DNA from: Oscillospiraceae bacterium
GTDB taxonomy: Bacteria; Bacillota; Clostridia; Monoglobales; WRAG01
NCBI GenBank assembly: GCA_009780345.1
Contig: WRAG01000012.1
Location: forward strand, 1 to 53,495
Direction: 5' to 3'
DNA length: 53,495 bases
Below the pieces are notes generated by a model, which searched no databases, had not been told where the DNA came from, and saw only the letters and a list, made by a program, of their open reading frames with translations. Shown piece after piece: positions 2,092-53,495 of the stretch (positions within the stretch are counted from its first letter, which is position 1; each line of letters begins with the position of its first letter). The translations under genes were made by a program, and so were the position numbers.

Positions 2092-2281
2092 AAAATAGGC
2101 TCCTTTGGCAAAGGAGCTGTCACGAAGTGACTGAGGATTGTATTTTGACAATCCCCCGCCCTTATGGGCACCCCTTTTGCCTAAGGGGGCTTTTTTTTAA
2201 TTGGGGCGACCGTTTTCTGCCGCCTGTTATATTAAAAACACAGAAATCAAATAATGGCGGGCGGCAAAATGCCGCCCCTAC
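2092..2281. repeat. Two dispersed short repeats between carB and nadE
   Basis: No gene is visible here. 2092-2205 is a chain of small hairpins: GGCTCCTTT/AAAGGAGC, GTCAC/GTGAC, and CCCCTT/AAGGGG followed by T8. It resembles a repeat I recall from many gut Clostridia. 2252-2281 contains the palindromic unit GGCGGCAAAATGCCGCC followed by CCTAC, which recurs at 38729-38748. The T8 run at 2194-2201 could also terminate plus-strand transcripts. Confidence 0.6.
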
Positions 2282-5556: not shown

Positions 5557-5608
5557 TTTTAACACTCTCCTTTTTATATTTTTAAGTATTTCTATAGTTT
5601 ACGTATTC

Positions 5609-6346
5609 TTTTGCACCTGCGGTGCGGGCTTAAAACCTTTTCAGCGAAGTCGCTGTAGCAATTGCGCTTGTCAGCGCAGGACGACAAGGGTTTATTGAAA
5701 CCCTTGTCAAGCCCCAAAAATTTTTTTCAAAAAAATTTAGTAAAACTTGCGGCGCAAACGCGCTTTCGCGCTATTAAAACCGCGCCGCTATTTGGGTTAG
5801 CGAACCGCATTCGCGGTAAATGAGACTTAGCTTGCGTATTATGCAAGCTGTAGTCGAATTATCCAGTGAGCGTAAGCGAGTCGGGAAAGACTAGCGAGTA
5901 CGCACGCCGCGCTCGTTCGAGAGCGACCCGCGCCTAAAAGCGCGAGATGTTTTTGGGGGAGGAGCGAGTTGTTTGCAGTAACTTTCGCCCGTGGTTCCGC
6001 CAGCGGGGCACCCGCGCGTCTTTTGCGTGGGTCGCGGCGGGGAGGGCGACGGTTTTAGTCAAGTTTTTGGCGCGCAAAAACTTGCTGGATTGGCAAGGAC
6101 TGGTCCTTGCCGCGCCGCGCGCGCCCGCGCAACGCCCGCCGCCTCAGCGGCAAAAAGGTTTTTAGGGCAAAGCCCTAAAAACTATGCGGCGTTCGCCGCA
6201 AGGTCTAAGGCGCAACGCGCCTTAACCCCGCGCCCGTTGGGCGCACATATGCGCTTGTCAGCGCAAGACACCCTGCGCCTGTCGGCGCAAAAACGGGTTT
6301 ATAGGGCATTCGCCCTATAATAAAGGGGAGCAAACGCTCCCCCCCA
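5609..6346. repeat. Hairpin-mosaic repeat block R1
   Basis: This 740-bp gap between gdhA and carB has no convincing gene. It is a string of short hairpins shared with blocks R2-R10. Examples are GACAAGGGTTT/AAACCCTTGTC (5683-5708), AGCTTGC/GCAAGCT, CAAGTTTTT-GGCGCGC-AAAAACTTG, GGCAAGGAC/GTCCTTGCC and TTTTTAGGGC/GCCCTAAAAA. Its first 170 bp match the start of block R9 module by module. Open frames across it (for example 5947-6165) are arginine/alanine-rich artefacts. Relative to the flanking minus-strand genes it is inverted compared with R2. Confidence 0.85.
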
Positions 6347-6357
6347 TAATATAAATA

Positions 6358-9925: not shown

Positions 9926-9940
9926 AAGTATAAGTAATAT

Positions 9941-10110
9941 AACTTGTTAGGTGAGGCTCCTAAAAGAACACAGGCTGCTGCCCTTAAATGTCGAGAGACG
10001 CCATTAGGGTATAACAGGCATAGTCGGATTAAGGCGTGCTTAATGTAGCTGGTTTGCTTTCTAAATCTACGTCTTTTAGTGCTAAAACTCATACGAGGGG
10101 TTGAATAGCT
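9941..10110 (+). ncRNA. M-box (ykoK leader) Mg2+ riboswitch
   Basis: The conserved M-box pieces occur in order: GTTAGGTGAGGCTCCT (9946-9961), GCTGCTGCCC, AAATGTCGAGAGACGCCA, then AATGTAGCTGG and GTGCTAAAACTC. This RNA folds around several Mg2+ ions when the metal is plentiful. It sits between a strong promoter and an intrinsic terminator ahead of mgtE, the classic arrangement for shutting off Mg2+ uptake by early termination. Confidence 0.95.
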
Positions 10111-10240: not shown

Positions 10241-11668
10241 ATGGATTCGGACGGTAGTAAGGGGAATAATACTAATCATTTAATATCGGAGGTAACACAA
10301 ATGACACTACACGAAAAAATCCTGTCTCACATCAAAGGCAAGGATATGGCGGGGCTGAAAAACTTGATTGCGAGCACGGAAGAGCTGGAATTTCTTGACG
10401 CGTTCTACGATTTGTCACCTGAAGAGCAGGTAATCGCGTTTCGATTGCTCGCGAAGGATAAGGCATTATTAATATTTGAAGAGTTAGACACAGACGAGCA
10501 GCAGAATTTGTTGCATTCGTTTACCGATCAAAGGGCAATAGAGCTTGTGAACGAAATGGCGCCGGACGATAGGGTGAAATTGTTGGAAGAAATGCCCGCC
10601 GTTGTCGCGAAAAAGCTTATCGGTTCGCTTTCTTCCGAAGAACGGCAAGTCACCAACGCCTTGATGGGGTATCAGCCTGAAACGGCGGGCCGTATAATGA
10701 CGCCCGAGTATATCTCGCTTCGGCGCGAAATGACGGCGGACGAAGCGTTGGCAAAAGTAAGAACACAGGCGAAAGATAAGGAAACAATCTATACATTGTT
10801 CGTAACCGACAATTCAAAGAAGCTCGAAGGCGTGCTTACGCTGAAAGAATTGCTTACCGCTGACGGTGACACAAAAATAGACGATATTATGTCGAAAAAG
10901 GCGGTAAAGGTGTCTACCGACACCGACCAAGAGGCAGTTGCGCGAACGTTGCAGGAGCTTGACCTTTTGGCGATTCCCGTTGTAGATAAGGAAGAGCGTT
11001 TGGTGGGTATCGTAACCATCGACGACGCGATTGACGTTTTGGAAGAAGAATATACCGAGGACATCTTCGACCAAGCCGGTCTTGCGGATATTACGGGCAA
11101 CGAATCCGACCGAAGCGAGATTCTTATAAATGGAAGCATGTGGAAAATTTGGAAAGTGCGATTACCTTTCTTGATAATCACGTTAGCCGGAGGACTCATC
11201 GCGGCAAGTATTATGGGCGGCTTTGAAGAAGCGTTGGAAACTATTACAGCAGTAGCCTTTTTTATACCATTGATTATGGACATGGGCGGTAGTGTCGGCA
11301 CGCAATCTTCCACTCTTTTTGCGCGCGCCGTCGTGTTGGGACATATTCAACCGAAAAAGTTTGCAAAACATTTCCTAAAAGAAATTGGTATCGGACTTAG
11401 CATGGGAATTTTGATAGGAGCCGCCGCCGGGATTATTGCCGCTTTTTGGCGAGGAGCGCCTGCCGTATTGGGGGTTGCTGTTGGACTTGCGGTGATTGTA
11501 ACTACGACATTAGCCTCGTTATTGGGATTCTTGATTCCATATGTGTTGATAAAGTTCAACGTAGACCAAACGGCAGGCTCTGCACCGATCATTACATCTA
11601 TTAAGGATATTGCGGGACTTTTAATCTATTTTTTATTTGTAAGCATATTCTTGGGAAATTTGATGTAG
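10241..11668 (+). CDS. mgtE: Magnesium transporter MgtE
   Basis: A 475-residue Mg2+ channel. In order it has an N-terminal alpha-helical domain (about 30-150), a CBS pair that senses cytosolic Mg2+ (about 150-280, with LTLKELLTADGD and VGIVTIDDAIDVL), and a membrane part with about five helices from residue 310. The selectivity region MDMGGSVGTQSS is present. Two start sites are plausible: ATG 10241 after AGGAGGTGAG, and in-frame ATG 10301 (MTLHEKIL) after CGGAGGT. The second matches homologue starts better. It is controlled by the upstream M-box. Confidence 0.96.
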   Translation: MDSDGSKGNNTNHLISEVTQMTLHEKILSHIKGKDMAGLKNLIASTEELEFLDAFYDLSPEEQVIAFRLLAKDKALLIFEELDTDEQQNLLHSFTDQRAIELVNEMAPDDRVKLLEEMPAVVAKKLIGSLSSEERQVTNALMGYQPETAGRIMTPEYISLRREMTADEALAKVRTQAKDKETIYTLFVTDNSKKLEGVLTLKELLTADGDTKIDDIMSKKAVKVSTDTDQEAVARTLQELDLLAIPVVDKEERLVGIVTIDDAIDVLEEEYTEDIFDQAGLADITGNESDRSEILINGSMWKIWKVRLPFLIITLAGGLIAASIMGGFEEALETITAVAFFIPLIMDMGGSVGTQSSTLFARAVVLGHIQPKKFAKHFLKEIGIGLSMGILIGAAAGIIAAFWRGAPAVLGVAVGLAVIVTTTLASLLGFLIPYVLIKFNVDQTAGSAPIITSIKDIAGLLIYFLFVSIFLGNLM

Positions 11669-17358: not shown

Positions 17359-18048
17359 ATGCTTGAAAAGTTGAAACAGGAAGTATATTTGGCGAATATG
17401 GAACTGCCGAAATACGGGCTTGTAACCTTTACATGGGGCAACGTCAGCGGAATCGACCGTGAGGCGGGATTGTTCGCGATAAAACCGAGCGGCGTGCCGT
17501 ATGAAGAACTTTCCGCCGATAAAATGGTTCTTGTCGATATGTACGGCAACGTAGTCGAAGGCGATTATAACCCGTCGTCGGACACGCCGACGCATTTGGC
17601 GCTTTACAAGGCGTTTGCCGACATCGGCGGAATCGTACATACCCACTCGACGTGGGCGACGGGCGTCGCGCAATCGGGTAAGCCGATTCCGGCGTTTGGA
17701 ACGACGCACGCAGACTATTTTTACGGCGCGATTCCTTGCACACGTGATATGACCGAGTCGGAAGTCGCGGGAGAGTATGAATGGGAAACCGGAACGGTGA
17801 TTATCGAGGCGCTTAAAGGTGTTGAGCCGCTGAGTATGCCCGGAATTTTGGTGAAAAATCACGGTCCGTTTTCGTGGGGCAAAAATGCCGCAGACGCCGT
17901 ACACAACGCGGTTGTGCTTGAGGAAGTTGCGAAAATGGCGGTTATCACGCGAATGAATAATTCTGATGCGACTCCCGTAAATCAATATTTACTAGATAAG
18001 CATTATTTAAGGAAGCATGGCGCGGATGCGTATTATGGGCAGAAGTAA
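17359..18048 (+). CDS. araD: L-ribulose-5-phosphate 4-epimerase
   Basis: A 229-residue class II aldolase-fold enzyme turning L-ribulose 5-phosphate into D-xylulose 5-phosphate, Zn-dependent. H94 and H96 in HTHSTWA correspond to the zinc ligands H95/H97 of E. coli AraD. TWGNVSG, KPSG and SSDTPTH bind the phosphate and substrate. The length equals AraD (231). The start at 17359 follows GGAGGGG; the longer frame from 17320 begins inside the promoter. No araA or araB is nearby. With UlaE and LyxK it completes an L-xylulose route. Confidence 0.95.
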
Positions 18049-18052
18049 AACT

Positions 18053-18603
18053 TTTGAAAAAAGTTTTGCAAAAATTGCGCCCAACGGGCGCGGGCTTTTA
18101 GGGCTTTGCCCTAAAAATCCATTACTCGGGTCCGTCCCGAGGGCGTGTGTCCTGCCGGACGGGCGGTAAGGGCTCTGCCCTTACCAATCCCGGTCGCCTG
18201 GCGATCACAAACGCACAAACCGCGATTTGTGCCGCGAGCGGCGACAAAAAAACTGGGCGAGCGAGCCGCATTCGCGGAAAGACTAGTGTGATATAGCACT
18301 GCGCTCCTTTTAAGAGCGATCCGCGCCTAAAAGCGCGAGATATTGCTTGGTTAGGGTGCTATGTTTGTAGTGACTTTCGCCCGCGGTTCCGCCAGCGGGG
18401 TACCCGCGTGTTTTTTGCGTGGGTCGCGGCGGGGAGGGCGACGGTTTTAGTCAAGTTTTTCCCGCGCAAAAACTTGCTGGATTGGCAAGGACTGGTCCTT
18501 GCCGCGCTGCGCGCGCCCGCGCACCCGGTCTAAGGCGCAACGCGCCTTTGACTCGCGCCCGCAGGCGCAAACCCTAACAAAATTTGATATTTAAAGAAAT
18601 AAG
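18053..18603 (+). repeat. Hairpin-mosaic repeat block R2
   Basis: This 550-bp gap has no credible gene. Modules in order are GCGCCCAACGGGCGC, TTTTAGGGC/GCCCTAAAA, GGTAAGGGC/GCCCTTACC, the conserved AATCCCGGTCGCCTGGCGAT flank, AAGTTTTT/AAAAACTT, GGCAAGGAC/GTCCTTGCC, and a final CCCTAACAAAATTTGATATT leader with AAGGAGG. The leader reads straight into the 18618 gene. Blocks R3, R6 and R7 share the same ending. Confidence 0.85.
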
Positions 18604-18617
18604 GAGGCAAACACCAC

Positions 18618-20690: not shown

Positions 20691-20705
20691 GAGGAGCCGT
20701 TTCAC

Positions 20706-21246
20706 GGCAACGATTTTGCGCCAACGGGCGCGGGTTGTTAGGGCTTTGCCCTAACAACCCATTACTCGGGTCCGTCCCGAAAGCTTATGACCTGCCGGTC
20801 GGGCATTAAGGGCTCTGCCCTTAATAATCCCGGTCGCCTGGCGATCACAAACGCCAAAAGGCGGCGATTTGTGACGCAAGCGGCGACGAAAAACCGCAGA
20901 TAGCCGCATACGCGGAAAGAATAGCGAGATGTGGCACTGCGCTCGTTCGAGCATGCGGCTTTTGCCGCCGTAGTCATTGAACTGAGAGGCGAGTTGGATG
21001 CACTATTTTAGCGGCGCGTTTATGATAGCGCGAAAGCGCGTGTGCGCCGCAAGTTTTACTAAATTTTTTGTTAAAAAATTTTCGGGGCTTGACAAGGGCT
21101 TCGATAAGCCCTTGTCGCTATGCGGCAGCCGCCGCAAACGCCCACAGAGCTTCGCTCTGAAAAAAGGTTTTTAGGGCAGAGCCCTAAAAGCCCGCGCCAC
21201 GGGCGCAAACCCTAACAAAATTTGATATTTAAAGAAAATAAGGAGG
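20706..21246 (+). repeat. Hairpin-mosaic repeat block R3
   Basis: No gene is visible in this 540-bp gap. It shares its first 200 bp with R2. The stems are changed on both arms: TTGTTAGGGC/GCCCTAACAA where R2 has TTTTAGGGC, and ATTAAGGGC/GCCCTTAAT where R2 has GGTAAGGGC. GACAAGGGCTT/AAGCCCTTGTC is at 21091-21116. It ends in the shared CCCTAACAAAATTTGATATT leader directly before rhaM. Confidence 0.85.
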
Positions 21247-21253
21247 AAAAAAC

Positions 21254-22407: not shown

Positions 22408-23115
22408 GGGCGTTGCCCCTGTGACCCCTCCGCGGGAGCGGTTGCGCCCTGCGGGCGCGGGTTTTTAGGGCTTTGCCCTAAAAACCCATTATTCAGAGCG
22501 AGGCTCTGGGGGCTGTTGCGCGGGCGCGCGCGGCGCGGCAAGGACCAGTCCTTGCCAATCCAGCATTTGAGACTTCGCTTGTGTGATTTTTCACAAACGG
22601 TAGTCGAAAAGTGCAGGGGCGTAAGATTTTGCTTTCAAAATCCACAGCCATCTGCCAAACTTTTGCGCGCCAAAAGTTTGACCAAAAGCGTCGCCCTCCC
22701 CGTCGCGACCCTTCCCGACAAAAGGCGTCGGGTGGGTGCCCCGCTGACGGAACCGCGGGCGAAAGTTAGTGCAATCAACGCACTTTAACCAAAGAAAATC
22801 TCGCGCTTTTAGGCGCAGTTCGTTCTCGAACGGGCGCGGCATTATATCTCACTAGTCTTTCCCGACTCCCGTTGGTCGCTGGATAATTCGACTACAGCTT
22901 ACAAAATACGTAAGCTAAGTCTCATTTACCGCGTATGCGGTTCGCTAACCCAGTTTTTCTGTCGCCGGCTTTGGCGCGAATCGCGTTTTTTGCGTTCGAC
23001 GCCATAGGCGACCGGGATTGATAAGGGCAGAGTCCTTATCGCCCGTCCGGCAGGACATACGCTCGCCGCCGCAGCGGCAAAACCCTGCGCCCTTCGGGCG
23101 CAAAAAAAGGAGCTA
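22407..23115. repeat. Hairpin-mosaic repeat block R4
   Basis: A 700-bp gap with no credible gene, inverted relative to R2. It includes GGTTTTTAGGGC/GCCCTAAAAACC, GGCAAGGAC/GTCCTTGCC, CAAACTTTT-gcgcgcc-AAAAGTTTG, AGCTTAC/GTAAGCT and GATAAGGGC paired with GTCCTTATC. The stretch 22564-22656 is the module that reappears, inverted, as the kduI leader (36346-36445). It ends just before the lyxK ribosome binding site. Confidence 0.82.
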
Positions 23116-23120
23116 TAAAA

Positions 23121-31580: not shown

Positions 31581-31884
31581 ATTCTAATCCATCCCATCGG
31601 CACAATTCCATATCAACCCGCCCATCCGGCAGGAACGTTACATCTTCGGTTTCCAAAAACTGCCTGCGCAAATCGGCATAAACGCCGCCGGTAATGGATC
31701 CGTCGTTCATCACGACTCGTTGCCACGGCAAATGTTCAGGACAGCGGCGCATAGCCCAACCAACCATCCTCGCCCCGCGCGGACTGCCTAACATTCGGGA
31801 AATTTGACCATAGGAAACAACTTTCCCATATGGTATTTGTTCAACGATTGAGTAAACTTGTTCGAAGAATGAGTTCGAGTTCAT
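31579..31884 (-). CDS. Alkyltransferase-like protein (ATL, MGMT family)
   Basis: A 101-residue protein with the DNA-binding half of O6-alkylguanine-DNA alkyltransferases: VSYGQISRMLGSPRGARMVGWAMRRCP. The acceptor motif PCHRV is PWQRV here (W54 in place of cysteine), the hallmark of ATL proteins, which flag O6-alkylguanine for nucleotide excision repair instead of removing it. The length is normal for ATLs. It starts after AAGGAA with repeat block R5 directly upstream. Confidence 0.9.
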   Translation of the reverse strand: MNSNSFFEQVYSIVEQIPYGKVVSYGQISRMLGSPRGARMVGWAMRRCPEHLPWQRVVMNDGSITGGVYADLRRQFLETEDVTFLPDGRVDMELCRWDGLE

Positions 31885-31904
31885 GTGGTTATATTCCTTT
31901 TTGC

Positions 31905-32490
31905 GCTGTCAAGCGCATATTTGCGCCTGCGGGCGCGGGCATTTTTGCCGCCACGGCGGCGGGGTTTTTGCGGGCTTCGAAGCCCATCTTTGTTTGTCAA
32001 GGACCAGCCCTTGACAATCCCGCAAGTTTTTGCGCGCCAAAAACTTGACTAAAAGCGCCGCGCTCACGCACGTGCTTACAAACCAAGCACACGTGGCGCG
32101 GAAGCGAGTACAATCAACTCGCCCCTACCCCAAAATATCTCGCGCTTTTAGGCGCGGGTCGGTCTCGAACGAAAGCAGTAATATATCTCGCTAATCTTTC
32201 CCGACTCCCGTTGGTCGCTGGATAATTCGACTACAGCTTGTAAAATACACAAGCTAAGTCTCATTTACCGCGAATGCGGTTCGCTAACCCAGCTTTTCTG
32301 TCGCCGGCTTTGGCGCAAATCGCTGCTTTTTGGCGTTTGCGACCATAGGCGACCGGGATTGGCAAGGGCAGAGCCCTTGTCGCCCGCCCGGCAGGGCATT
32401 GGCTTCGGAGCCCCGCTCTGAATAATGGGTTTTAGGGCAAAGCCCTAAAAATTATGCGGCAATTGCCGCAAATATGCGCTTGTCAGCGCA
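31905..32490 (-). repeat. Hairpin-mosaic repeat block R5
   Basis: A 590-bp gap without a gene. On the minus strand it has the R2 module order: GGGC/GCCC hairpin, AAGGGC/GCCCTT with the AATCCCGGTCGCC flank, then CAAGTTTTT/AAAAACTTG and GTCAAGG/CCTTGAC. Changed stems include AGCTTGT/ACAAGCT and GTGCTT/AAGCAC. It is co-oriented with the downstream ATL gene. Confidence 0.83.
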
Positions 32491-32493
32491 AAA

Positions 32494-37289: not shown

Positions 37290-37822
37290 GGACGAAGTCC
37301 CTGCATTCCTTTTGCCGCGGGAGCGGTTGCGCCCAACGGGCGCAGGTTTTTAGGGCTTTGCCCTAAAAACCCATTGCTCGGGTCCGTCCCGAGGGCGTGT
37401 GTCCTGCCGGACGGGCGATAAGGGCTCTGCCCTTACCAATCCCGGTCGCCTGGCGGTCACAAACGCACAAACCGCGATTTGTGCCGCAAGCGGCGACAAA
37501 GAAACTGGGTCAGCGAACCGCGTTCGCGGAAAGAATAGCGAGATATAGCACTATGCCCGTTCGAGAGCGACATATATACGCACCCTCGTTTCCGCCAAGC
37601 GGGGCACCCGCGCGTAGTTTGCGTGGGTCGCAGGCGGCGGGAGGAGTTTTTGTTAAAACTTTTTCTGAAAAAGTTTTTCGGGGTTCGTTAAGGGTATTCG
37701 ATAATACCCTTGACAAACAAAGACGGGCTTCGAAGCCCAAACAAAAGCCCGCGCCCGCAGGCGCAAACGCTACAGAGACACGACCCTAACAAAATTTGAT
37801 ATAAAAGACAAAGACAGGAGGA
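37290..37822 (+). repeat. Hairpin-mosaic repeat block R6
   Basis: This 530-bp gap between kduI and kduD has no gene. It begins like R2 (GCGCCC/GGGCGC, TTTTTAGGGC/GCCCTAAAAA, GATAAGGGC paired with GCCCTTACC) with the AATCCCGGTCGCCTGGCG flank. Later it carries GTTAAGGGTATT/AATACCCTTGAC (37687-37714). It ends in CCCTAACAAAATTTGATAT (from 37784) and AGGAGG, directly leading kduD. Confidence 0.84.
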
Positions 37823-37829
37823 AAAATTC

Positions 37830-38660: not shown

Positions 38661-38684
38661 GACGGCGGCTGGCTTGCAAGATAG
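38661..38684 (+). pseudogene. Remnant of a kduD-like 3' end
   Basis: Codons here read DGGWLAR then a stop, repeating the end of kduD (38568-38591) with synonymous changes in the last codons (GCAAGATAG against GCGCGGTAA). An in-frame stop a short way upstream and the lack of a start show it is not a gene. It may be what is left of a tandem duplicate. The match is only 7 residues. Confidence 0.4.
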
Positions 38685-38748
38685 TAGGGGCGGCATTCTG
38701 CCGCCCGCAAGAAAAAAGCATCAACGGGCGGCAAAATGCCGCCCCTAC
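38684..38748. repeat. Paired inverted GGGGCGGCATT units
   Basis: GTAGGGGCGGCATTCTGCCG and, 25 nt on, CGGCAAAATGCCGCCCCTAC form a large inverted repeat, and each arm is itself palindromic. The second arm recurs at 2255-2279. No gene overlaps it; it lies between kduD and the oxidoreductase. Confidence 0.7.
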
Positions 38749-41725: not shown

Positions 41726-41767
41726 TTTTTGTGCAATAAAATCATGTGATATTATGTATACTTTTTA

Positions 41768-42122
41768 TTCAGAGACCGTCTCTGAGGGCGTGTGCCCGTC
41801 TGGCATGAGGGCGACAAAAGTTAGCGAGCCGCGTTCGCGGAAAAATTAGTGCATGCGAACGCCGTTCCAGTCGAGCATGCGGCTTTTGCCGCCGTAGGTA
41901 CTAAACTGAAAGGATATTGTTCGCAGTTCTCAATGAGCGGCGCGTTTTTGATAGCGCGCGAGCGCGTTTGCGCCGCAAGGTTTGATAAAACTTTTTAAAG
42001 TTTTTCGGGGTTCGTTAAGGGTGTTCGATAACACCCTTGACAAACAAAGCCCGCGCCCGCAGGCGCAAAACGCTACAGAGGCACACCCTAACAAAATTCG
42101 ATATTTAAAGAAAGTAAAGAAA
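41768..42122 (+). repeat. Hairpin-mosaic repeat block R7
   Basis: A 355-bp shortened member of the family, no gene. It includes TCAGAGAC/GTCTCTGA, GGCGGC-type arms, GTTAAGGGTGTT/AACACCCTTGAC (42014-42041) and GCGCCCGCAGGCGC. It ends in CCCTAACAAAATTCGATATT (from 42086), leading into pgi. The missing ligA BRCT domain lies on its 5' side. Confidence 0.8.
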
Positions 42123-42135
42123 GGAATGATATAAA

Positions 42136-43461: not shown

Positions 43462-43499
43462 TTTTGAAATCAGTATGGTAGAATAGGGGTAGCAAGGGA

Positions 43500-43790
43500 T
43501 TGCAAAAGCGACGTTCGTACTTGGTAATTTTTCCCGACTCGCTTACGCTTACTGGATAATTCGACTACAGCTTGCAAAATGCGCAAGCTAAGTCTCATTT
43601 ACCGCGAATGCGGCTTGCTAACCAATGTTTTTATCGTCGCCGGCTTTGGCGCAAATCGCCGTTTTTTGGCGTTTGTGACCATAGGCGACCGGGATTATTA
43701 AGGGCAGAGCCCTTAATGCCCGCCCGGCAGGGCAATGCTCTCGGAGCCTCGCTCTGGAAAAAGTCTGCGCTCGTAGGCGCGAAATATAAG
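43500..43790. repeat. Hairpin-mosaic repeat block R8
   Basis: About 290 bp in inverted orientation relative to the flanking genes. It includes AGCTTGC-aaaatgc-GCAAGCT, ACCGC-gaat-GCGG, the GGCGACCGGGATT flank, and ATTAAGGGC/GCCCTTAAT. No gene is visible. The lipoprotein's AAGGAGG lies just after it. Confidence 0.8.
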
Positions 43791-43809
43791 TTGCAAGGAG
43801 GAAAAAATT

Positions 43810-48593: not shown

Positions 48594-48612
48594 GATGCCT
48601 CCTTTTTTTGCA

Positions 48613-49070
48613 CTTGGCAAGCGCGGGCTTAAAACCTTTTCAGCGAAGTCGCTGTAGCATTTGCGCTTGTCAGCGCAGGACGACAAGGATTTATCGAAAT
48701 CCTTGTCAATCCACGAAAAACTTTAAAAAGTTTTATCAAACAGGCGGCGCAAACGCGCTATTGCGCTATTAAAAGCGCGCCGCTAAAGGTGTGTAAACAT
48801 CTACGTGTTAGTTAAGCACCTACGGCGGCAAAAGCCGCAAGCTTGACTGATACAGTGTTATATATCGTTAATCTTTCCGCGAATGCGGTTCGCTAACCAA
48901 TGCTTTTTTCGTCGCCGGCTTTGGCGCAAATCGCGTTCTTTGCGTTTGCGTCCATAGGCGACCGGGATTGGCAAGGGCAGAGCCCTTGTCGCCCGTCCGG
49001 CAGGACATAAGCTCGCCGCCTCAGCGGCAAAATGGGTTTTTAGGGCAAAGCCCTAAAAACCATTTTGCCG
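48613..49070 (-). repeat. Hairpin-mosaic repeat block R9
   Basis: A gap of about 440 bp upstream of the deacetylase with no gene. Its first 170 bp match R1 module by module, with the changed stem GACAAGGATTT/AAATCCTTGTC (48682-48707). It then carries GGCGACCGGGATT, GGCAAGGGC/GCCCTTGTC and TTTTTAGGGC/GCCCTAAAAA. The last arm supplies the leuS stop codon. On the minus strand it is co-oriented with the deacetylase gene. Confidence 0.83.
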
Positions 49071-51992: not shown

Positions 51993-53216
51993 TTATTGCC
52001 AATAGTTGAAATCACTACCCAAAATGATGGTTACATCGTAAACTGAATCTCTGTCGTCATACTGTCGGACGTAGATTTCCGGCATGATTTTCAAAATTTC
52101 GGTCGAGCCGCGGCGGGCGTTGTGGTCGATGATCATTGTTTGCTCTGCCGCGTCGTCAGTTCGCACCGATTGGACGTTAAACGCGTTGTCGCGGAGCAGT
52201 TGCGCGACCATGTCGCCCAAATTTACATCGTCAAGTTCGACGCCTGTCGCGTCCACGACTTCCACCGCGATTGAGCGATTTTTGTTGCGGTTGATTCGGA
52301 CGTTGGGCTCGGTTCGCTCTGTGGTTTGCGTTGGTGTGAGATACTCGGCAACGATTCTACCGGTTTCCTCCGAATCGTGAATGAAATATGAAATTCCGCC
52401 AACAAAGCCTACGTCTCCGGGAAGTTTCATGATGTTGAAGCCGCTTAAGTCGGCGCGGAGGGCGATGCTAACAAACCGAACCATTTCGCTTCCCGAAATA
52501 TCGGTTCGCACGTTTTCTTGGACGATTCCAATTAGGTTTGGAAGTTGCAAAATCCCGCGGGCGCTGACAAGCCTGTCCATAACGGCGGCGTAAAACTGCT
52601 GCTGCGCCCTGATTCTGCCCAAATCACCGTCGGGATAGCCGCTACCGTCATTATTTTTGCGGAATCGGATAAAGCCTTCGGCTTGTCTGCCGTTTAGGGT
52701 TTGCGGGCCGGGGCGCAGGTCGATGGTCAAATTTTGGCAAGGATCGGTGTAAAACATTCTTATGGGAACGTCAATTTCGACGCCGCCGATTGCGTCAACT
52801 ATGTCGCGGAAGCCTCGAAGTCCAACGATTACGTATCTGTCGATTTCAAGCCCGGTAACTTGCGTAACGTCGCTTTTTAGTTCGTCGATTCCGCTAAGCG
52901 AGAATGCCGAGTTGATTTTATTATCCCATCTGGCGGTTTCAACCCTTGTGTCGCGGGGGATTTGTATGGCGTTTAGCTCGCCGGTTTCGAAGTTATACTG
53001 GGCGACCATGATTAAGTCGGCGAGGCTGAATGCGTCAACGCCGACAACGAGGAAGTTTATCGAACCACGCTGCGCGAACGTGTCGGCGCGCCCGAAGAAT
53101 CCGACTTGAACGCCGAATAATGTCGCTATATTATCAACCGCGAAGCCAACGCCGAGAACCACAATAAAAATGGCGAGCATAAACGCGATGAATCGGATTG
53201 GGTTTTTGATTTTGAT
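51993..53216 (-). CDS. LytR-CpsA-Psr (LCP) family cell-wall protein
   Basis: A 407-residue protein that attaches anionic polymers to peptidoglycan. It has a cytoplasmic IKIKNPIRFIAF stretch, one TM helix (about 13-30), the LCP domain (NFLVVGVDAF, IQIPRDTRVETA, AIGGVEIDVP, RFRKNNDGSGYPDGDLGRIRAQQQ) and a C-terminal LytR_C-like domain (about 300-385). The first ATG is 53180, but AAGGAG lies 9 nt before an ATC codon at 53216 that gives the usual IKxKN start; an in-frame stop lies just upstream. I give ATC as likely start, with reserve. Confidence 0.9.
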   Translation of the reverse strand: MKIKNPIRFIAFMLAIFIVVLGVGFAVDNIATLFGVQVGFFGRADTFAQRGSINFLVVGVDAFSLADLIMVAQYNFETGELNAIQIPRDTRVETARWDNKINSAFSLSGIDELKSDVTQVTGLEIDRYVIVGLRGFRDIVDAIGGVEIDVPIRMFYTDPCQNLTIDLRPGPQTLNGRQAEGFIRFRKNNDGSGYPDGDLGRIRAQQQFYAAVMDRLVSARGILQLPNLIGIVQENVRTDISGSEMVRFVSIALRADLSGFNIMKLPGDVGFVGGISYFIHDSEETGRIVAEYLTPTQTTERTEPNVRINRNKNRSIAVEVVDATGVELDDVNLGDMVAQLLRDNAFNVQSVRTDDAAEQTMIIDHNARRGSTEILKIMPEIYVRQYDDRDSVYDVTIILGSDFNYWQ

Positions 53217-53228
53217 AAAGTGTCACTC

Positions 53229-53495
53229 CTTTTTTGCGCCCTGCGGGCGCGGGCTAAAGGCGCGTTGCGCCTTAGACCAAAAAACTTTTGAAAAAAGTTT
53301 TACAAAATTTGCGCCTGTGGCGCAGGTTTTTAGGGCGAAGCCCTAAAAACCCTTTTTGCCGCTGAGGCGGCGAGGCGTTGCGCGGGCGCGCGCGGCGCGG
53401 CAAGGACCAGTCCTTGCCAATCCAGCAAACTTTTGCGCGCCAAAAGTTTGATCAAAAGCGCCGCGCTCACGCACGTGCTCAAAAACCGAGCACAC
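53229..53495 (-). repeat. Hairpin-mosaic repeat block R10 (runs off the window)
   Basis: The last 267 bp have no gene. Modules are GCGCCC/GGGCGC, AAACTTTT/AAAAGTTT, TTTTTAGGGC/GCCCTAAAAA, GGCAAGGAC/GTCCTTGCC, CAAACTTTT-gcgcgcc-AAAAGTTTG, and GTGCTC-aaaaacc-GAGCAC where R5 has GTGCTT/AAGCAC. It is upstream of, and co-oriented with, the LCP gene. Confidence 0.82.

Follow-up and report, generated by a model that had tools for sequence, protein, structure and literature searches.

Why should short hairpins scattered through one bacterial genome change their stems on both arms, while the loops within them and the bases around them stay the same? The question is raised by a hairpin at 37687..37714 of the window, the whole stretch of 53,495 nucleotides analysed here. 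The window makes up contig 12 of a draft genome from the class Clostridia, which totals 2.05 Mb in 59 contigs and is 96% complete. The source family has no further member among the genomes returned, and LigA is at most 51% identical to that of named relatives. In the window 40 perfect hairpins have arms no shorter than 9 bp, while three mononucleotide shuffles yielded 0, 0 and 0. Five hairpins cited in a preliminary description as variants of one module were all recovered, with stems that indeed differ on both arms:

37687..37714, - strand: module A terminal hairpin, the hairpin in question, stem GTCAAGGGTATT/AATACCCTTAAC, loop ATCG
5683..5708, + strand: module A terminal hairpin, GACAAGGGTTT-ATTG-AAACCCTTGTC
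48682..48707, + strand: module A terminal hairpin, GACAAGGATTT-ATCG-AAATCCTTGTC
21091..21116, - strand: module A terminal hairpin, GACAAGGGCTT-ATCG-AAGCCCTTGTC
42014..42041, - strand: module A terminal hairpin, GTCAAGGGTGTT-ATCG-AACACCCTTAAC

Read on the - strand, the hairpin in question has AACGAACCCCGA as its inward flank; its third outer pair, like that of the hairpin at 42014, is G.T (A.C on the other strand). The further stems AGCTTGC, AGCTTAC, AGCTTGT, GGTAAGGGC, ATTAAGGGC, CAAGTTTTT, CAAACTTTT, GTGCTT and GTGCTC are likewise present with their complements; GGCAAGGGC, listed with them, has no exact complement in the window, and faces GCCCTTGTC, with a G.T pair, at 32361 and 48970.

These hairpins had been regarded as independent. 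They are in fact homologous copies of one repeat family, each lying within an intergenic composite repeat of 0.35-0.9 kb which comprises a dozen or more hairpin modules. The core consists of two interchangeable arms, exchanged between copies, which meet at TTAGCGAACCGCATTCGCGG-AAAGAYTAGCGAGATAT; each is capped by a terminal hairpin of the form NNYAAGG-stem-loop-CCTTRNN, followed inward by AATCC. Ends are of three types, A (loop ATCG, ATTG, GTCG or GTTG), B (loop TCT) and C (loop CTGG), and the pairings B-A, B-C and A-C were all seen in a module map covering 428 kb. Outside the core lie short hairpins, such as TTTTTAGGGC-TTT-GCCCTAAAAA, AAGGCGC-AAC-GCGCCTT, GCGCCC-loop-GGGCGC and others. The following features were annotated in the window:

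5566..6357, + strand: composite repeat, core A'-C and outer hairpins
18047..18617, + strand: composite repeat, B-C core
20691..21253, + strand: composite repeat, B-A core
22408..23120, - strand: composite repeat, B-C core with D and D2 inserts
31881..32493, - strand: composite repeat, B-C core with D insert
37290..37829, + strand: composite repeat, B-A core, containing the hairpin at 37687..37714
41726..42135, + strand: composite repeat ending in module A
43462..43809, - strand: composite repeat, L1 arm, centre and D
48600..49070, - strand: composite repeat, B-A core
53181..53495, - strand: composite repeat, R1 arm, truncated by the contig end
5797..5816, 18258-18277, 37510-37529, 41821-41840, + strand: core centre TTAGCGAACCGCATTCGCGG
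22929-22948, 32268-32287, 43602-43621, 48877-48896, - strand: core centre TTAGCGAACCGCATTCGCGG
18165..18185, + strand: module B terminal hairpin (loop TCT), outer pairs GGT/ACC
20805..20825, + strand: module B terminal hairpin, outer pairs ATT/AAT
37417..37437, + strand: module B terminal hairpin, GAT/ACC, one A.C mismatch
23020..23040, - strand: module B terminal hairpin, outer pairs GAT/ATC, one A.C mismatch in the inner stem
32361..32381, - strand: module B terminal hairpin, GAC/GCC, A.C mismatch, the GGCAAGGGC stem
43697..43717, - strand: module B terminal hairpin, outer pairs ATT/AAT
48970..48990, - strand: module B terminal hairpin, GAC/GCC, A.C mismatch
6092..6111, 18484-18503, + strand: module C terminal hairpin (loop CTGG)
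22537-22556, 31996-32015, 53399-53418, - strand: module C terminal hairpin (loop CTGG)
6060..6084 (+), 18452-18476 (+), 32023-32047 (-): module E hairpin, CAAGTTTTT-GGCGCGC-AAAAACTTG
22656-22680, 53426-53450, - strand: module E hairpin, CAAACTTTT type
6202..6223 (+), 18527-18548 (+), 53257-53278 (-): outer module h4, whose loop is inverted in copies elsewhere
5817..5885, + strand: module D, hairpin unit of 68-70 bp at the core centre
22861-22928, 32200-32267, 43533-43601, - strand: other copies of module D

The apical loop of the L1 arm also carries long structured inserts, each about 100 bp in size and belonging to two or more unrelated kinds (L009:3028-3280, L010:3902-4162 and L020:10672-10931), as well as a recurrent insert with GCTAAATCTCTAAGCAGTAAACTGCTAAG.

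The analysed DNA amounts to 821 kb of genome stretches, the first 375 kb of which were picked around hits and are therefore biased in density. A second set of 393 kb was not picked for hits: here the family makes up 4.5% of bases, in 41 blocks of at least 150 bp, which scales to an estimated 210 or so blocks genome-wide. The family is absent from 79 other genomes in a pattern search, from 50 further genomes of its order in a BLAST search, and from GTDB r220, IMG/VR, PLSDB and INPHARED; a single IMG/VR match, falling within a phage gene, was dismissed as a chance one.

The compensatory change of the stems is real, and withstands three controls: shuffling, displacement of the pairing partners by 1-3 columns, and replication on a set of stretches drawn from other contigs. 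In the L1 arm (alignment A1, 26 copies) 97.0% of stem cells hold standard pairs and both sides have changed in 46 cells, compared with 14.3 in shuffles (matched in 0 of 500), slid partners giving 0-4 double-changed cells. For the R1 arm (alignment A3, 20 copies) the figures are 99.8% paired and 36 double-changed cells, compared with 13.8 in shuffles (0 of 500). Over the 821 kb, R1 pair 267/285 is GC in 14 copies, TA in 15 and AT in 3, with two mismatches, and two adjacent pairs of module E read GT/AC or AC/GT with almost no intermediates. When stems were left free and only flank and loop were anchored, copies with more than 3 mismatches being set aside, modules B, C and E gave 489, 388 and 359 Watson-Crick cells with 33, 12 and 1 mismatches; for the same modules, 475 of the 494 cells of the replication set are Watson-Crick.

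The constancy of loops and flanks, the other half of the pattern first described, is seen in modules A, B and C, and in the flanks of D. It is lost when averaged over whole arms: there stems have a mean heterozygosity of 0.10-0.18, loops one of 0.18-0.27 and linkers one of 0.28-0.29. Loops that vary no more slowly than stems had been proposed as evidence against selection on folding. On average they do vary so; this is not decisive, because covariation lies far above the shuffled background all the same.

What keeps the arms in agreement can be approached through the frequency of stem alleles. Private alleles, found in a single copy, are paired in 17 of 58 cases and unpaired in 41 (71%). The paired share of minor stem alleles rises from 29% for single-copy alleles to 44% for those in two copies, 51% for those in 3-5 copies and 89% (222 of 249 cells) for those in more than five, a dependence on copy number with Fisher p = 1e-4 at the allele level. 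In both L1 and R1, stems gain private changes about 70% as fast as linkers do. Since private stem alleles are mostly broken and common ones paired, folding matters when copies spread and not for each resident copy: resident copies decay, and the fold is either filtered as copies spread or only slowly corrected. By itself the frequency test is also compatible with slow correction, as older variants have had longer to be compensated. With about 200 paralogous hairpin arrays in one genome, folding selection, template-switch correction and decay become separable by allele frequency; the test is simple, and could serve REP families and RNA genes, for which it is debated how compensatory change arises.

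Relatedness among the copies might in principle account for the covariation, if a few old subfamilies had been copied often and each stem type had arisen once. Neighbouring states are indeed linked in A1, GACC occurring mostly with ATT, and related copies inflate the counts. Even so, a paired origin is required for every distinct stem, 89% pairing is seen among variants present in more than five copies, and on the flank tree parsimony demands 10-23 changes for each L1 pair shown, the branches of this tree being weak; the trees used are in general weakly supported, and independent-contrast tests on them had few supported pairs. The same pattern, with all four pair types, is moreover shown by a second family in other genomes (see below). 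Shared ancestry as the source of the covariation thus appears very improbable.

A somewhat unlikely account, to be weighed more seriously, is that arm-to-arm copying (template switching, or quasi-palindrome correction) is the main cause, with no selection on the fold. Template switching has been proposed for hairpins with concurrent multi-base stem changes and inverted loops, loop inversion being its strongest footprint (PMC8794818), and such inversions between unchanged arms do occur here. The h4 loop is inverted from AAC to GTT between L017:14000 and L061:14771, within identical flanks GGTCTAAGGCGC and GCGCCTTAAGCCCGCGCCCGCAGGGCGC, and the h1 loop from TTT to AAA between window position 37347 and L014:4258. 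Double transversions, the adjacent double pairs of module E lacking an intermediate, and length changes on both arms (A11, A12) point the same way. Prompt correction of one arm, on the other hand, is not seen: with 71% of private stem alleles still unpaired, arm-to-arm correction is not fast, and the private mutations of this repeat, contrary to what template-switch hairpins would lead one to expect, are mostly uncorrected. Inversions are confined to h4 and h1, none being found in modules A, B, C and h7. Template switching also leaves unexplained the fixed flanks of module D and its arrival at several sites, module insertion being a separate process.

Selection on an RNA fold, the repeats encoding or acting as structured RNA, would equally produce covarying helices, which are present in the repeat arms and include a longer-range helix (R1 columns 130-133 with 202-205, 20 of 20 paired). 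A structured RNA tolerates G.U pairs on its own strand only. When ends are read outward, common intermediates are G.T at 9 sites and A.C at 2, which is suggestive only; on the element strand, by contrast, there are 55 G.T and 75 A.C cells, with no consistent G.U excess, the cells not being independent. In GTAG repeats, frequent G.T pairs were taken by the authors as a hint of RNA function (PMC3733652). Genomic context speaks against such a role: core centres have no orientation preference, 13 lying in the same and 23 in the opposite sense to codirectional neighbour genes, and the four kinds of spacer are used in proportion, divergent ones not being avoided. Rfam searches at gathering and at relaxed thresholds gave no match to the repeat family, the lone match being non-significant (E = 9.9; 18 bits, where the cut-off is 60). 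As single copies also decay, RNA folding is not supported as the cause, and we consider it quite improbable.

Module D is the clearest case of stems that change between fixed flanks. The unit, TAAATGAGACT-hairpin-AGTCGAATTATCCAG...GAGTCGGG, is inserted precisely at GCGG^AAAGA, a site found empty in about 70 copies, at TGTGA^AAACC, empty in 13 copies, and at TTTTTG^CGTTT, for which exact empty sites occur in other copies. Its stem is wholly different from site to site (AGCTTGC-type, GCTTTTC or [AG]ATTTTGC), with AATGAGACT and AGTCGAATTATCCAG unchanged. A relative, D2, precedes AAACTTTTG in the R1 arm. The target-site duplication by which MITEs are recognized is absent at the three D sites with exact empty sites; duplication-free insertion fits single-strand transposition of the IS200/IS605 kind. 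Mobility of the repeat is seen between paralogues only, no related genome offering empty sites for comparison. Nested modules with exact empty sites point to an unrecognised route of spread for tiny hairpins. Very small hairpin units might even form a mobile class of their own, inserted without target duplication by an enzyme that reads folded single-stranded DNA, with the stem swapped as a block at each new site and flanks and foot kept; we regard this as doubtful.

The best explanation, to which we give about an even chance, is that the hairpins are parts of lineage-specific, non-autonomous mosaic mobile elements, which spread as folded single-stranded DNA. An element of this type would spread only if folded in single-stranded form, and would be recognized by loop, foot and flank, not by the sequence of its stems. 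In lineages where spread continues, stems would then be free to drift provided that the two arms keep matching, and resident copies would decay; some double changes would probably arise at a single stroke, by arm-to-arm template switching. Among the causes originally suggested, folding of single-stranded DNA during spread is thus the best fit, and one that the duplication-free insertion of module D favours; arm-to-arm copying has left its mark in the loop inversions, yet does not maintain the copies, and RNA folding finds no support. TnpA-REP cuts hairpins regardless of much of the stem sequence, and mismatches are harmful in perfect-stem REPs (PMC8266576).

The enzyme that we infer to move these elements may have been lost from this genome. 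Neither a RAYT nor an active single-strand transposase was found in the 96% complete genome, where Y1 is represented by a single match, an IS200-type TnpA gene interrupted by an in-frame stop (L049, G000:C31:6324-6680), the ends of which are unlike those of the repeat. One reverse transcriptase domain match runs off a contig end (L050, G000:C9:65610-66224), and none of eight tyrosine recombinases in the genome is shown to be linked to the repeats. A missing SbcD was considered as the reason for the survival of palindromes, and rejected because low SbcD is also found in 38 other genomes of the order. SbcD scores below the curated cut-off here and above it in 12 of 51 genomes of the order, and XseA is present and intact; low SbcD may be permissive at most.

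On the best-supported reading the repeat works like a BIME or an IS200-type derivative, but fits the full definition of neither. Like REP, BIME and REPIN sequences, it is extragenic, present in high copy and made of short palindromes arranged in mosaics. It differs from them in having no unpaired GTAG/CGTC tag at the hairpin foot (the feet of A, B and C are paired NNY/RNN followed by AATCC, and those of D are GACT/AGTC), in the lack of a RAYT (TnpA-REP) gene, and in assembling a dozen or more different palindromes into each 0.35-0.9 kb element, with divergent spacers not avoided. With non-autonomous IS200/IS605 derivatives it shares hairpin ends, the duplication-free insertion of module D and, probably, recognition of the fold rather than of the stem sequence; the sole TnpA of the genome, in contrast, is decayed and has ends of another type. 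Small, mobile-looking intergenic hairpins, sometimes joined or nested, are also known from mitochondria, as yeast GC clusters, double-hairpin elements and sponge RHE. In sponge RHE stems are conserved and loops vary (PMC2800124), whereas in the Clostridia repeat stems also turn over in pairs.

Complementary stem change has already been described in REP families, GTAG repeats including subfamilies that differ in this way (PMC3733652). It also characterizes a second Clostridia repeat, GGAGCTGTC-NNCGNAGNN-GACTGAGG, which is of other sequence and shorter than the mosaic repeat and turned up in 23 of the 60 genomes searched, or 22 of the 59 others. Here too all four kinds of stem pair occur between constant flanks, around a loop that varies at one base, and 287 of 290 stem cells are Watson-Crick among 145 listed copies of usual length. 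Since both this repeat and the GTAG repeats show it, paired stem change is general to dispersed hairpins rather than peculiar to the genome studied here. A chain-of-hairpins repeat at window 2096-2190 (GGCTCCTTTGGCAAAGGAGCTGTCACGAAGTGACTGAGG...) is a related copy of the GGAGCTGTC-NNCGNAGNN-GACTGAGG family, the stems of which covary almost perfectly.

Some other features were noticed. CTAACAAAATTTGATAT, tried as an element end, was rejected, since it proved to be a leader before start codons. The conserved leader CTAACAAAATTYGATA always stands just 5' of a start codon, at ten sites in 821 kb (window 18574, 21212, 37786 and 42088, and L013-L061), often at the edge of a composite repeat; it is possibly a promoter or leader signal. 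Inverted GGGCGGCAAAATGCCGCCC hairpins in spacers, at window 38684-38748 and 2250-2280, represent a further small repeat type. Finally, an M-box magnesium riboswitch (window 9936-10107, + strand, 144 bits) lies upstream of the MgtE transporter gene at 10241-11668.
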